Source of the DNA: Bombiscardovia nodaiensis
Lineage (GTDB): Bacteria; Actinomycetota; Actinomycetes; Actinomycetales; Bifidobacteriaceae
DNA: 64,000 nt
Direction: 5' to 3'
NCBI GenBank assembly: GCA_033127725.1
Contig: AP026798.1
Coordinates: 2,170,001-2,234,000 of the forward strand
The notes below the pieces were generated by a model. That model had not been told where the DNA came from. It saw only the letters and a program-made list of their open reading frames with translations, and did not search any database. This document shows, piece by piece, positions 1,208-5,602 of the stretch. Within the stretch, counting starts at the first letter, position 1. Each line of letters begins with the position of its first letter. The position numbers were made by a program, and so were the translations under genes.

Positions 1208-2637
1208 ATGCGAGACGAGGGTAACGAACACAGCGAGCACGACAGCAGCCACAGCGGACCGGTGGGCGCAGCCGCGCCCGTACCCGCAGCGGCAACGGCT
1301 CTCAGCCGACGCTCGGTCTACCGGCAAATAACAGCTCTCGCTATCCCTACCTTCGGCCAGCTCATAGCCGAACCCGCGTTTGTGATGATTGACACCGCCA
1401 TCGTGGGACACATCTCGGACGCAGCCATGGCGGGCCTGTCCATCGGATCCACGGTCGTGCTCACCACCGTCGGTCTATGCGTCTTCCTGGCTTATGGCAC
1501 CACTTCCAAGGTGGCCCAGCTCATGGGGGCCGGCAAACGCAAGGAAGGCATGGAAGTGGGCATAGACGGCATGTGGCTGGCCTTCGGCATCGGCATCGTC
1601 GTCTGCGCCCTGCTCGTGGCCTTCAGCACGCCCCTGTGCCACCTGATGGGTGCCCGGGGGCCGTCCTCATCGCCGCCCGCCAGTACCTGAACGCCACCAT
1701 TTTCGGCCTGCCCGCCATGCTCCTGGTCTACGCAGCCAACGGCATCTTCCGCGGTCTGCAAAAGGTCAGAATCACCCTCATCGCAGCCGTCACGGGAGCC
1801 CTACTCAACACTGGGCTTGAAGTGCTCTTCGTCTTTGGCCTGCACTGGGGAATCCTGGGATCAGGCGTGGCCACGCTGATTGCCGAATGGTATATGGGCA
1901 TTGTCCTGACCGTGCCAGCCCTCATCTGGGCGAAGAAAGAGGGAGCCAGCTGGAAACTGCGCCCAGCAGGCATCCTCGGTTCCGCTGGCGACGGCTTCCC
2001 GCTCTTCCTGCGCACCCTAGCCCTGCGCGTCTGCCTAGCCTCAACGGTGGTGGCCGCGGCCTACCTGGGCGAGCAAGTGCTGGCCGGCTACCAGGGCGTC
2101 AACTCGGCCTGGAATTTTGGGCTCAACATGCTAGACGCGGTTGGCATCGCCGGTCAGTCCCTAGTCGCCACCGAGCTGGGAGCCCGCCACAAGCGCCGCG
2201 CCCGCATGATGACTGACCTCTCCGCCAAGGCCGGCATGATTATGGGAGTCGCCGTGGGCCTGATTATGATTGCCCTGGGCCTAGTGGCAGCACCCCTCTT
2301 CAGCCCTACGCCTGCCGTGCAAACGCTCATCACAGTCGGCATGGCCGTGGAGGGCGTATTCATGCCCATCGCCGGTTGGATGTGGGCCCTGGACGGCATC
2401 CTGATCGGCGCCGGCGACTACACCTACTTAGCTGCCACCTGCTCGGCAACGGCCGTGGTCTATGTAGCCGCCCTGGTTCCGCTGACCCTGTGGGCACAGA
2501 GCTGGCCCAGCCAAGCCTGGCGCATCGTTATGCTCTGGTGCGCCATCAACTTCCTCTATATCGGCATACGGGCCATCTTTAACGGCCTACGCGCCCGCGG
2601 GGACGCATGGATGAACCGGGCCCTGTCCGCCGCCTGA
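1208..2637 (+). pseudogene. MATE-family multidrug efflux protein, disrupted by a one-base frameshift
   Basis: The product would be a DinF/NorM-type MATE antiporter exporting cationic or aromatic compounds with Na+ or H+. The 5' frame (from 1208) gives IPTFGQLIAEPAFVMIDTA and ends at 1690 after a nonsense tail. The continuation, starting QYLNATIFGLPAML, is in another frame and ends at 2637. The break is at the G run 1656-1660: five Gs are present, and a sixth would restore LMGARG-AVLIAARQ. The repaired protein would have about 476 residues and 12 membrane segments, the normal family size. Both halves keep good coding character, so the lesion is recent, a base-calling error, or a switchable homopolymer. 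A 13-bp hairpin follows the stop. Confidence 0.85.
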
Positions 2638-2706
2638 GCCGCCAGCAGGGGCGGGGGAAGCCACGACACAGGCACCAGGAATCCGATAATAAATAAAGAG
2701 AACACC

Positions 2707-2743
2707 AAGGGCGGCAGACCAGGATACCCAGTCTGCCGCCCTT
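2707..2743. terminator. Bidirectional terminator between the MATE gene and amtB
   Basis: A perfect 13-bp inverted repeat (AAGGGCGGCAGAC at 2707-2719, complement at 2731-2743) encloses an 11-nt loop. It lies between two convergent genes. The A/T ends of the arms give short U tracts in either direction. Confidence 0.75.
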
Positions 2744-2781
2744 ACTCCCGCCAGCAGGAAACAGCACGCCAGCAGCAACCC

Positions 2782-4047
2782 TCACTCGAACTTGTTCGTC
2801 AGCTGATAAGCCCGCTCGCCCTGGGAGGCAATATCCGCGCCCGCCTCCTCCTGAGCCTCGGAGAGCCGCCAGCCCAGCGTCTTCTCTAGGGCAAAGGCAA
2901 TGACGCCCGTCACCACAGCCGAGTAGACAATAACGATCAAGCAGACCACAAACTGCACCAGGAGCTGACGGAAGCCGCCGCCCGAGAACAGCCCGGTGCC
3001 GGCAGCAAACAAGCCGAGCAGGAGCATACCCAGCAACCCTGCCACGCCGTTAATGCCCACCACGTTGAGCGAATCGTCGTACTTGAGGCTGTATTTGAGG
3101 GAGACCGTGAAGCAGCAGGCCACACCCGCAGCCAGGCCCATCACAATGGCCCACAGGGGTGCCACCGAGGCGGCAGCCGGGGAGATGACCGCCAGACCAG
3201 CCATAATGCCGTAAGCCGCGCCGCGAGCCGTGTAGTGCCCAGAACGAATCTTCTGTGTCACCATCCAGCCCAGGGCCGAGGAGCACACGGCGAGCGCCGT
3301 AGAAACCCACGCGTAACCGGCAGTACCCGTGGCACTGAAGGCCGAACCCGCGTTGAGCCCCAGCCAGCCGAAGCAGAGCAAGCCCACTCCCGAGAGCGTC
3401 ATCGGCAGGTTGTGCGGCCCCACCAGGCGCTCGCCAAAGCCCTTACGGCCGCCAATAATAATCACTATCACCAGGGCAGCGATAGCCGCGTTGAGCTGAA
3501 CCACGGAGCCGCCAGCAAAGTCGCGCAAGGGAGCTCCCAGAGCGTTGGAAATAGGGCCGTCCGCCGCCAAAAGCCCGTGGTTCCACACCATGTGCGCTAG
3601 GGGCGCGTAGTCAAAGGAGACCCACAGAGCCACGAATACAATCCAGGTTGAGAATTTCACGCGCTCAGCCAGAGCACCAGAAATCAGGGCCACTGCGAAC
3701 ATGGCGAGCGCCCCCTGGAAGCCCACATCAATGATGTGCGGGTAGAGCGCGTCCTTGGGGTCCACCGACGTAAACATGCCGTTCTTCGCCACAACCGTAT
3801 CCCGCAGGAGGAAGCCGGTGCCCGGATCACCAAAAATGCCGCCAATATCCTTGCCCGCAAAGGCCAACGACCAGCCCCAAACCCCCCAGACGAGCGTGGT
3901 AACGATGCCGGCGCCCAGGGAGAGCATGAGCATGTTGAGCACGCTCTTAGCCCGCACCATGCCTCCGTAGAAGAGGGCGAGCGCGGGGGTCATGAGGAAG
4001 ACCAAGCCCGCTGCCATCAGCATCCAAGCTGTAGAACCAGAATCCAT
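2782..4047 (-). CDS. amtB: AmtB-family ammonium transporter homologue with substituted pore residues
   Basis: This is an eleven-helix inner-membrane protein of the Amt/Mep/Rh family, 421 residues, of normal length. The start at 4047 (MDSGSTAW) is preferred to an upstream in-frame one because AGAGGTG precedes it. Family landmarks are LFYGGMVRAKSVLN near the N-terminus, GALAERVKF, AHMVW, PHNLPM and the C-terminal tail EEAGADIASQGERAYQL, the part that normally contacts PII. Pore positions differ from E. coli AmtB: the first twin-His is Gln (residue 184, DFAGGSVVQLNA) and the second is Asn (residue 333, NVVGINGV). The Phe of FQGSF is Leu (GFQGAL), and FGFNAGS reads LGLNAGS. Transport activity or selectivity may therefore be changed. 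No glnB/glnK follows, as a terminator is directly downstream. Confidence 0.9.
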   Translation of the reverse strand: MDSGSTAWMLMAAGLVFLMTPALALFYGGMVRAKSVLNMLMLSLGAGIVTTLVWGVWGWSLAFAGKDIGGIFGDPGTGFLLRDTVVAKNGMFTSVDPKDALYPHIIDVGFQGALAMFAVALISGALAERVKFSTWIVFVALWVSFDYAPLAHMVWNHGLLAADGPISNALGAPLRDFAGGSVVQLNAAIAALVIVIIIGGRKGFGERLVGPHNLPMTLSGVGLLCFGWLGLNAGSAFSATGTAGYAWVSTALAVCSSALGWMVTQKIRSGHYTARGAAYGIMAGLAVISPAAASVAPLWAIVMGLAAGVACCFTVSLKYSLKYDDSLNVVGINGVAGLLGMLLLGLFAAGTGLFSGGGFRQLLVQFVVCLIVIVYSAVVTGVIAFALEKTLGWRLSEAQEEAGADIASQGERAYQLTNKFE

Positions 4048-4271
4048 TGCTTTCACCTCTGCTTTGCTGGCGGCCTTTACGTACCTGCCGCCGCTGTCCA
4101 TCGCCGTGAGCTCGCTCGCCCACCTACCGTTTCATCCGCCCGACTACGCTGCCTTACTGCCATAGAGTACTCGCAAGCACTCGCACAGCCCTCAGCAAGA
4201 CCAGCTGCTGGCTACCTTCCCGCCGGGCCAAACCACCCGTCATCTGGACAGGCAGCCGAAGTTCCCATACT
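4048..4271. other. Intergenic gap between ftsY and amtB
   Basis: These 224 bp separate the ftsY stop from the amtB start on the same strand. They must carry the amtB promoter if amtB is transcribed on its own. I see no clear hairpin, operator or small gene. Confidence 0.4.
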
Positions 4272-5534
4272 TTACTCCTGGCCTAGGATGCCGTCCACAA
4301 ACGAACCGGGGTTGAAAGGTGCCAGGTCGTCCGGCCCCTCGCCGAGCCCCACGAGTTTGACGGGCACACCCAGCTCACGCTGCACCGAGACCACAATACC
4401 GCCCTTAGCTGAGCCGTCCAGCTTCGTAAGCACAATACCAGTAATGCCGATTGCTTCGGCGAACACTTTCGCCTGAATCATGCCATTTTGCCCGGTGGTC
4501 GCGTCCAGGACCAGCAGCACCTCGTCCACCGGCAAGTTCTTCTCCACCACCCGGCGAATCTTGCCCAGCTCGTCCATCAGGTTAGCCTTATTTTGCAAGC
4601 GTCCAGCCGTATCCACAATGAGCAAATCCGCGTCCGTGTCTTTCGCCTGCTGCGAGGCTTCAAAGGCTACCGAAGCGGGGTCGGCACCCTCCCGCTCCGA
4701 GCGCACAACTGGCACGCCCACCTTCGAGCCCCAGGTCTCCAACTGGTCAGCAGCCGCCGCACGGAAGGTATCAGCCGCCCCCATCACCACCGACTTGCCG
4801 TCTGCCACAAAGAGCCGGGCCAGCTTGCCAGCCGTCGTGGTCTTGCCAGTGCCATTGACCCCCACCATGATGACCACCGAAGGCTTAGCTGCCCCGGGCC
4901 GAGTGGCCACGAGCGAGCGGTCCTGGCCGGTATCCACCAGGTCCAGAAGCTTCTCCCGGAGCATGGCGTGCACGGCCTGCGGGTCTTTCTCGCCCTTCAC
5001 GCGTGCATCGGAGCGCAGCTGGTCCACGAGTTGCTCGCTGGCCTCGGCCCCCACATCGGCCTTGAGCAGGGTGTCTTCCACATCCTCCCAGTCAGCTTCG
5101 CTCAGGTGGTCCTTGGTCAAAATGGCAAACAGGGCCTTGCCAAAGGGGTTCGGGCTTTTAGCCAGCTTGGCCTTGAGCCGGGTCATGCGCGAGGCGGAGG
5201 ATTCAGGGGCTTCTACACCCTGAACTCTGGACTGCGCAGCTTCTTGCCCGGTCTGCTCTGTCTGCCCAGATGCTGGGCCACTCCCGCCAGCGGCCTGACC
5301 ACCGGAGCCTCGGCCAGCTTCTCCAGCCTGGGATTGCGGCGACTGATCCGACCCGGTTGGGCCAGCCGAGGTAGCCGATCCAGCGCCCTGCCCGCGCGCC
5401 TCCTGCGACCGCTGAGCAGCCTGGGACTGCTGGTCCTGATTCTTGCGCCGACGCGCAAATGCCCACCAGACGCCCGCCACAATCAGTAGCAGGACAAGCA
5501 CTCCAACCAGGGCAATAATGCTGTTAGTATTCAT
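4272..5534 (-). CDS. ftsY: Signal recognition particle receptor FtsY
   Basis: FtsY is the SRP receptor GTPase that docks Ffh-bound ribosomes at the membrane. The chosen ATG (5534, MNTNSIIALV) gives 420 residues; an in-frame GTG ten codons upstream is possible. An N-terminal membrane anchor (about residues 5-27) is followed by a basic RRRK patch and a roughly 90-residue Gln/Ala/Ser/Gly-rich linker. The N domain starts near SSASRMTRLKAKL. The G domain shows GVNGTGKTTTAGKLA (G1), DTFRAAA (I-box), DTAGRLQN (G3), TKLDGSAKGG (G4) and GLGEGPDDLAPF at the C-terminus. A true N-terminal membrane helix is the actinobacterial style of FtsY. A small membrane protein gene lies 68 bp upstream on the same strand. 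Confidence 0.97.
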   Translation of the reverse strand: MNTNSIIALVGVLVLLLIVAGVWWAFARRRKNQDQQSQAAQRSQEARGQGAGSATSAGPTGSDQSPQSQAGEAGRGSGGQAAGGSGPASGQTEQTGQEAAQSRVQGVEAPESSASRMTRLKAKLAKSPNPFGKALFAILTKDHLSEADWEDVEDTLLKADVGAEASEQLVDQLRSDARVKGEKDPQAVHAMLREKLLDLVDTGQDRSLVATRPGAAKPSVVIMVGVNGTGKTTTAGKLARLFVADGKSVVMGAADTFRAAAADQLETWGSKVGVPVVRSEREGADPASVAFEASQQAKDTDADLLIVDTAGRLQNKANLMDELGKIRRVVEKNLPVDEVLLVLDATTGQNGMIQAKVFAEAIGITGIVLTKLDGSAKGGIVVSVQRELGVPVKLVGLGEGPDDLAPFNPGSFVDGILGQE

Positions 5535-5602
5535 ACCTTCAAGAGTAAAGTTGCGAACGGACACACACCAATCTGCGGGTGGAGAACGGTACGGCTTGCA
5601 GA

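Follow-up and report, generated by a model that had tools for sequence, protein, structure and literature searches.

The sole Amt gene of Bombiscardovia nodaiensis (search of the assembly, 2 contigs, 2.29 Mb) encodes a bacterial Amt protein in which both histidines of the twin-His pair and both residues of the Phe gate have been replaced, and which is under purifying selection. Same-locus counterparts occur elsewhere in the Bifidobacteriaceae. We put at roughly even the chance that this family has repeatedly converted an ftsY-linked, deprotonating Amt into either a passive pore or a scaffold that no longer transports, through replacement of twin-His and gate residues, with PII also gone in Bombiscardovia, Gardnerella and genus code g10. 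The variants would then be natural, selected twin-His mutants.

The altered pore and its rarity

The gene occupies positions 2782..4047 on the minus strand of the 64,000-nucleotide stretch analyzed here (the window) and was delimited by its open reading frame, alignment, and Pfam and TIGR profiles. The 421-residue product matches PF00909 over its full length (309 bits, profile positions 1-399 of 399) and passes the TIGR00836 cut-off (348.5 versus 343.3 bits), and it does not reach that of the AmtB equivalog NF007947 (286.3 versus 657). Residues 2-415 align to E. coli AmtB chains, gap-free across the pore motifs (phmmer), and the alignment speaks for 4047 as the start rather than a second in-frame ATG upstream at 4101. 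An AlphaFold2 model built from 26 sequences (pLDDT 73.9, pTM 0.79) is of moderate confidence and informative on the fold only. Its top Foldseek match is the AmtB chain 2nuu_D (TM 0.80/0.82, rmsd 4.6), and the predicted structure has the 11-helix Amt fold.

Using the numbering of mature E. coli AmtB, the alignment places Gln at the first twin-His (H168Q, codon 184, 3496..3498) and Asn at the second (H318N, codon 333, 3049..3051; these and all codons below on the minus strand), as an earlier note on this DNA had proposed. That note also reported a gate Phe changed to Leu and FGF changed to LGL; both gate residues are Leu, the outer (F107L, codon 114, 3706..3708) and the inner (F215L, codon 231, 3355..3357), together with F213L (codon 229, 3361-3363). 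I110F (codon 117, 3697..3699) adds a Phe one helical turn deeper, a change repeated in a Bifidobacterium aemilianum variant described below, and D313N (codon 328, 3064..3066) lies at the cytoplasmic end of the pore. F103, Q104, W148, D160, W212, N216, and S219 are unchanged, so that all three residues of the entrance site (D160/W148/S219) are present. An indel that moved the histidines elsewhere, the caveat attached to the original observation, is ruled out, as the alignment has no gap near the sites.

Among the 120 matches listed, the nearest proteins are those of Bombiscardovia apis (88% identity) and B. coagulans (85%), followed by P0004 (82%). These three and the window Amt share L107, F110, Q168, L215, N313, and N318. 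Because all four twin-His and gate changes recur in these four distinct proteins, chance or sequencing error is an unlikely source. At the entrance, D160 is retained in all four and S219 in three (Ala in one), and W148 is Phe in two. None of the other 116 matches listed carries the set F107L/H168Q/F215L/H318N, and F107, H168, F215, and H318 are each found in 116/116.

We surveyed the phylum with a draw of 100 genomes, 78 of which gave Amt matches (the window's included), and read 110 stretches, some of them pieces of one gene; five fragments (two from G196:C10 and one each from G228, G261, and G193) and the window's gene were left out. H318, F107, and F215 were present in 108/108 readable stretches; H168 was found in 103 and Glu in 5. 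Loss of both histidines occurred in 0 of the 107 stretches readable at both sites. The five Glu forms (DFAGG..VE) belong to Amts of other Actinomycetota (L219, L233, L239, L290, and L292) and establish that bacterial E168 forms exist. Both histidines were likewise present in every Amt read from 74 of the 142 PII-positive Bifidobacteriaceae genomes with no variant copy seen, where the Amt read for G171-G173 was only an extra copy. Judged by these alignments, loss of both histidines was seen only in Bifidobacteriaceae in this sample.

Locus, PII loss and selection

By tblastn context, the gene order of the family is ftsY-amt-glnB-mate-dnaB (for example, L002, L006, L007, and L152). In the window and at L001, L146, and L147, glnB is absent between amt and mate, with the remainder in place. 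The amt-mate gap of the window (2638..2781, no strand assigned) corresponds to the glnB position of relatives, and a terminator-like 13-base inverted repeat was read from the sequence at 2707..2743 (arms 2707-2719 and 2731-2743, no strand assigned). The conserved upstream neighbor is ftsY (4272..5564, minus strand; Pfam, context), and the conserved downstream neighbor is a MATE-family gene (1208..2637, plus strand; Pfam, ORFs). The frame of the latter is broken in the window genome, being split over two frames at about 1648-1660 through either a real change or a sequencing error; the match is continuous in four relatives (L146, L147, L317, and L318).

The earlier note's remark that no glnB or glnK lies beside amt extends to the whole genome, in which no PII gene was found by a search positive in 13 of 14 control genomes. 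PII matches are absent from all five genomes of the clade (G000, G126, G127, G138, and G151), which form one supported group (95/96) in an FtsY tree, next to the asteroides group with its normal Amt and PII. As the five PII-less genomes group together, PII was probably lost once, and amt may afterwards have been either altered and kept or deleted. Deletion would describe G126 and G151, where the order is ftsY-mate-dnaB and no amt relic was found.

The surviving gene is under purifying selection. For the window versus B. apis, dN/dS is 0.073 for Amt and 0.066 for the neighboring FtsY, dS being saturated in several other pairs. The stem of Bombiscardovia measures 0.41-0.48 in the Amt trees, with tips of 0.10-0.12, whereas in the FtsY tree the stem is only 0.04 long and the tips 0.05-0.07; from these branch lengths, we read the history as a burst of Amt change followed by constraint. 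Of 18 conserved pore sites in the core, 7 are replaced, versus 17 of 136 others (p 0.009), although the list of pore sites includes the four that gave rise to the test; leaving these out, the count is 3/14. With a wider 35-site pore list, the figures are 8/29 versus 16/125 (p 0.051). Lower variability of pore sites among the four closest proteins was not significant (5/35 versus 94/386, p 0.22), and the pore enrichment test failed for the g10 variants.

The same long stem would also fit an amt gene decaying under relaxed selection, as would the sister genomes G126 and G151 and the wider family, in which all 11 genomes lacking an Amt match also lack a PII match (three of the 11 are <80% complete). 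Against decay, the frame is intact in 4/4 proteins with the same new residues, and dN/dS is similar to that of FtsY. A pseudogene is not supported on these grounds, and we regard ongoing decay as the least probable of the readings weighed here.

Across the 189 genomes, Amt was matched in 178 and PII in 156. The 22 PII-less genomes with an Amt include 21 in which at least one twin-His is replaced (G188 being uncertain and G181 also carrying a normal Amt); the remaining one, G110, has a normal Amt. In G110 and G181, the contig stops at amt, where glnB would sit. The independent events behind these counts are few: Bombiscardovia, Gardnerella, g10, and perhaps G188. Variant copies also occur in 14 PII-positive genomes (G015, G001-G004, G182, G183, and G174-G180), and glnB adjoins the variant in B. 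aemilianum, g2, and g13, so PII loss is not a condition for the alteration. The overall pattern nonetheless suggests that loss of the PII off-switch and of the proton relay are linked. Position 313, which we take to be a PII contact, is Asn in Bombiscardovia and His in Gardnerella and retains Asp in g10, all three being PII-less.

Variants elsewhere in the Bifidobacteriaceae and their descent

The Gardnerella type, found in 12 genomes, combines F107C, F215L, H318N, and W148C (Tyr in G123) with H168 retained in 11 of 12; H168 with N318 recurs in 120/120 of the Gardnerella-type matches listed, and the G118 Amt is 97% identical to G. vaginalis proteins. At L150 (6951-8774), this type has 71 additional residues inserted behind E. 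coli position 190, and its C-terminus is extended by approximately 120 residues, many of them acidic. The B. aemilianum variant (F107L, I110F, H168Q, and H318Q) lies at the ftsY-glnB locus (L148, 5205-6710, G015:C28) and extends C-terminally by approximately 90 residues. A normal Amt is encoded elsewhere in that genome (L149, G015:C50); it clusters with the asteroides group, which is bee-associated (98, or 97 without the longest rows), from which it was perhaps acquired.

The remaining groups show other residues. The g13 variant has H168G and H318N, whereas in g2, H168 becomes Phe or Trp and H318 becomes Phe, Ala, or Cys. In g2 (L132-L135), S219 is Lys, His, or Arg, and glnB still adjoins. The g10 variant has H168Q with H318 retained at approximately 31-34% identity. 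The g12 and G188 Amts are so divergent that alignment columns are uncertain; subject to that uncertainty, g12 (L136, L137, and L141-L145; seven genomes of 0.6-0.9 Mb) has no Asp aligned at D160, and these genomes carry a divergent PII match. Variants adjoin ftsY in Gardnerella, B. aemilianum, g2, g13, g10 (L151), the g12 loci, and L101; ftsY was not seen at L099, L102, or L115. A normal twin-His Amt is also present in G015, G182, G183, and 5/7 g12 genomes.

The main rival reading takes its strength from this collection: the pore would be closed and the protein kept for a non-transport role, as a membrane scaffold, docking site, or receptor. We consider it possible, on the doubtful side. Pore changes differ chemically by lineage (Gln, Asn, Gly, Trp, Phe, Ala, and Cys at the two histidines), as expected if loss of transport alone is shared. 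Several variants adjoin glnB, with normal Amts elsewhere in B. aemilianum, g13, and most of g12; the long C-terminal extensions noted above, and the inactivity of known Amts mutated at both His or at both Phe, argue the same way. The Bombiscardovia Amt itself fits less well: it lacks both an extra domain and a long tail, there is no PII for it to dock, and most of its entrance residues are retained.

Descent was examined with two sets of trees. The FtsY tree (46 rows; 25 further loci were dropped, FtsY being absent or too short) rejects a single clade of variant carriers (p-AU 2.9e-6), and parsimony counts six changes on it, or three when starred branches alone are counted. The same result speaks against one ancient paralogue behind all variants. 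Since FtsY traces the organisms, amt alone may still have been replaced horizontally. In the Amt tree (73 hand-picked rows), all variants fall on one branch (89, drawn open) that carries a long-branch warning; without the longest rows, they form two groups, and one clade has a p-AU of 0.06, above 0.05. The long-branched Amt trees thus do not settle variant ancestry. We also saw little sign that the Bombiscardovia and B. aemilianum genes exchanged sequence by gene conversion: in 40-residue sliding windows, identity peaks N-terminally (0.82) and is elsewhere mostly no higher than to ordinary Amts.

Pore mechanism and comparison with known Amt proteins

In the passages cited here, the twin-His pair of AmtB is described as a bridge between two water wires that conveys the proton during NH3 passage through the pore (PMC7447429). 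The H168A/H318A mutant does not transport ammonium, and single His-to-Ala changes lose specificity (PMC3647058, PMC7447429). F215 is essential in AmtB and F107 is not, with F215A and four other F215 changes reported inactive (PMC10433425); loss of both Phe residues abolishes ammonium transport in AtAMT1;2 (PMC6856177). Given these inactive mutants, the Bombiscardovia pore may simply be dead. We found no measurement of a Gln/Asn twin-His pair in the open-access literature.

On general chemical grounds, the proton relay that His provides is not available to amides. Our tentatively favored reading, for which we would claim somewhat less than an even chance, is that this relay has been lost, leaving the protein as a passive, non-concentrative path for NH3/NH4+ with no need of a PII switch. 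The two-lane NH4+ mechanism of the Amt at the ancestral ftsY-amt-glnB locus would have been lost: as the amides of Q168 and N318 would be unable to pass protons between the two water wires, NH4+ would no longer be split and driven inward. The entrance site (D160, S219, and W148) would still gather ammonium, and the pore would offer a passive path for NH3 or hydrated NH4+. Because such a path could not drive accumulation in the cell against a gradient, a PII plug would be superfluous, which would explain the joint loss of PII and the histidines in the Bombiscardovia clade. Residue patterns point both ways: retained entrance residues favor contact with ammonium, and the variety of replacements and the bulky F110 favor a closed pore. 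L107, F110, S165, and Q168, common to the Bombiscardovia and B. aemilianum variants, suggest that the pore can be packed in another, workable way.

The earlier note's suggestion of a repurposed transporter or sensor survives in its first half, in that the protein appears to be no ordinary transporter any longer; a sensor is disfavored, PF00909 being its only domain in the Pfam search and its C-terminal tail short and ordinary. The note had also raised K+ passage, and an unspecific channel for NH4+ and K+ has a precedent in AmtB H168D/H318E, reported as a K+-passing channel in a study where hydrophilic pairs widen and flood the pore (PMC9040831). Against such a channel, the amides of Gln and Asn carry no charge, F110 is a bulky addition, and the cited passages describe no gain of H+ or K+ permeability in gate-less AmtB (PMC10433425) and no K+ passage by any AtAMT1;2 gate mutant (PMC6856177). 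Kup is encoded in 27/27 genomes of the genus and TrkH in 0/27, making K+ uptake independent of this amt. A necessary role in K+ uptake is rejected accordingly; a K+/NH4+ leak is possible, and we judge the channel reading unlikely.

The bee gut is assumed to be rich in ammonium, and glutamine synthetase, present in 27/27 genomes of the genus, makes ammonium assimilation possible. A study of termite symbionts (PMC11707648, in the passage cited) reads the combination of Amt and glutamine synthetase as an indication that reduced Bifidobacteriaceae assimilate ammonium.

In length, fold, and most entrance residues, the window Amt resembles the Amt subfamily (PF00909, TIGR00836), E. coli AmtB included. 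It departs from AmtB in that both twin-His and both Phe-gate residues are replaced and no PII partner gene was found. Family members without pore histidines are also known from the human RhD/RhCE proteins, which have a structural role. In the RhAG-RhCE-ankyrin entry 7uzq, chains of this Rh branch match the model of the window Amt at 14-15% identity. The receptors Ca. Kuenenia Amt5 and Shewanella Amt1 (6eu6, 8qj3), also among its Foldseek matches, use the Amt fold for sensing; Amt5, as described in the passage cited, retains the twin-His and Phe gate (PMC10433425); the window Amt has no extra domain.

Fungal Mep1/Mep3 and the five Actinomycetota Amts are natural twin-His changes as well, but of the first His only, to Glu, and the five retain the second His and both Phe residues, unlike the window Amt. 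The passage cited from eLife 2020 gives this first-site His-to-Glu change, in some fungal Meps, as the sole natural twin-His variation (PMC7447429). We found no description of the present variants in the titles, abstract openings, and cited passages of the open-access literature, where twin-His mutants are known only as laboratory constructs, the single Glu form excepted. As in the AmtB laboratory mutants H168A/H318A and H168D/H318E, both pore histidines are replaced in the window Amt; it differs from them in its Gln and Asn, in the accompanying changes at the gate Phe residues and I110, and in being natural and kept by selection. In this context, the variants serve as ready-made natural test proteins for twin-His function.
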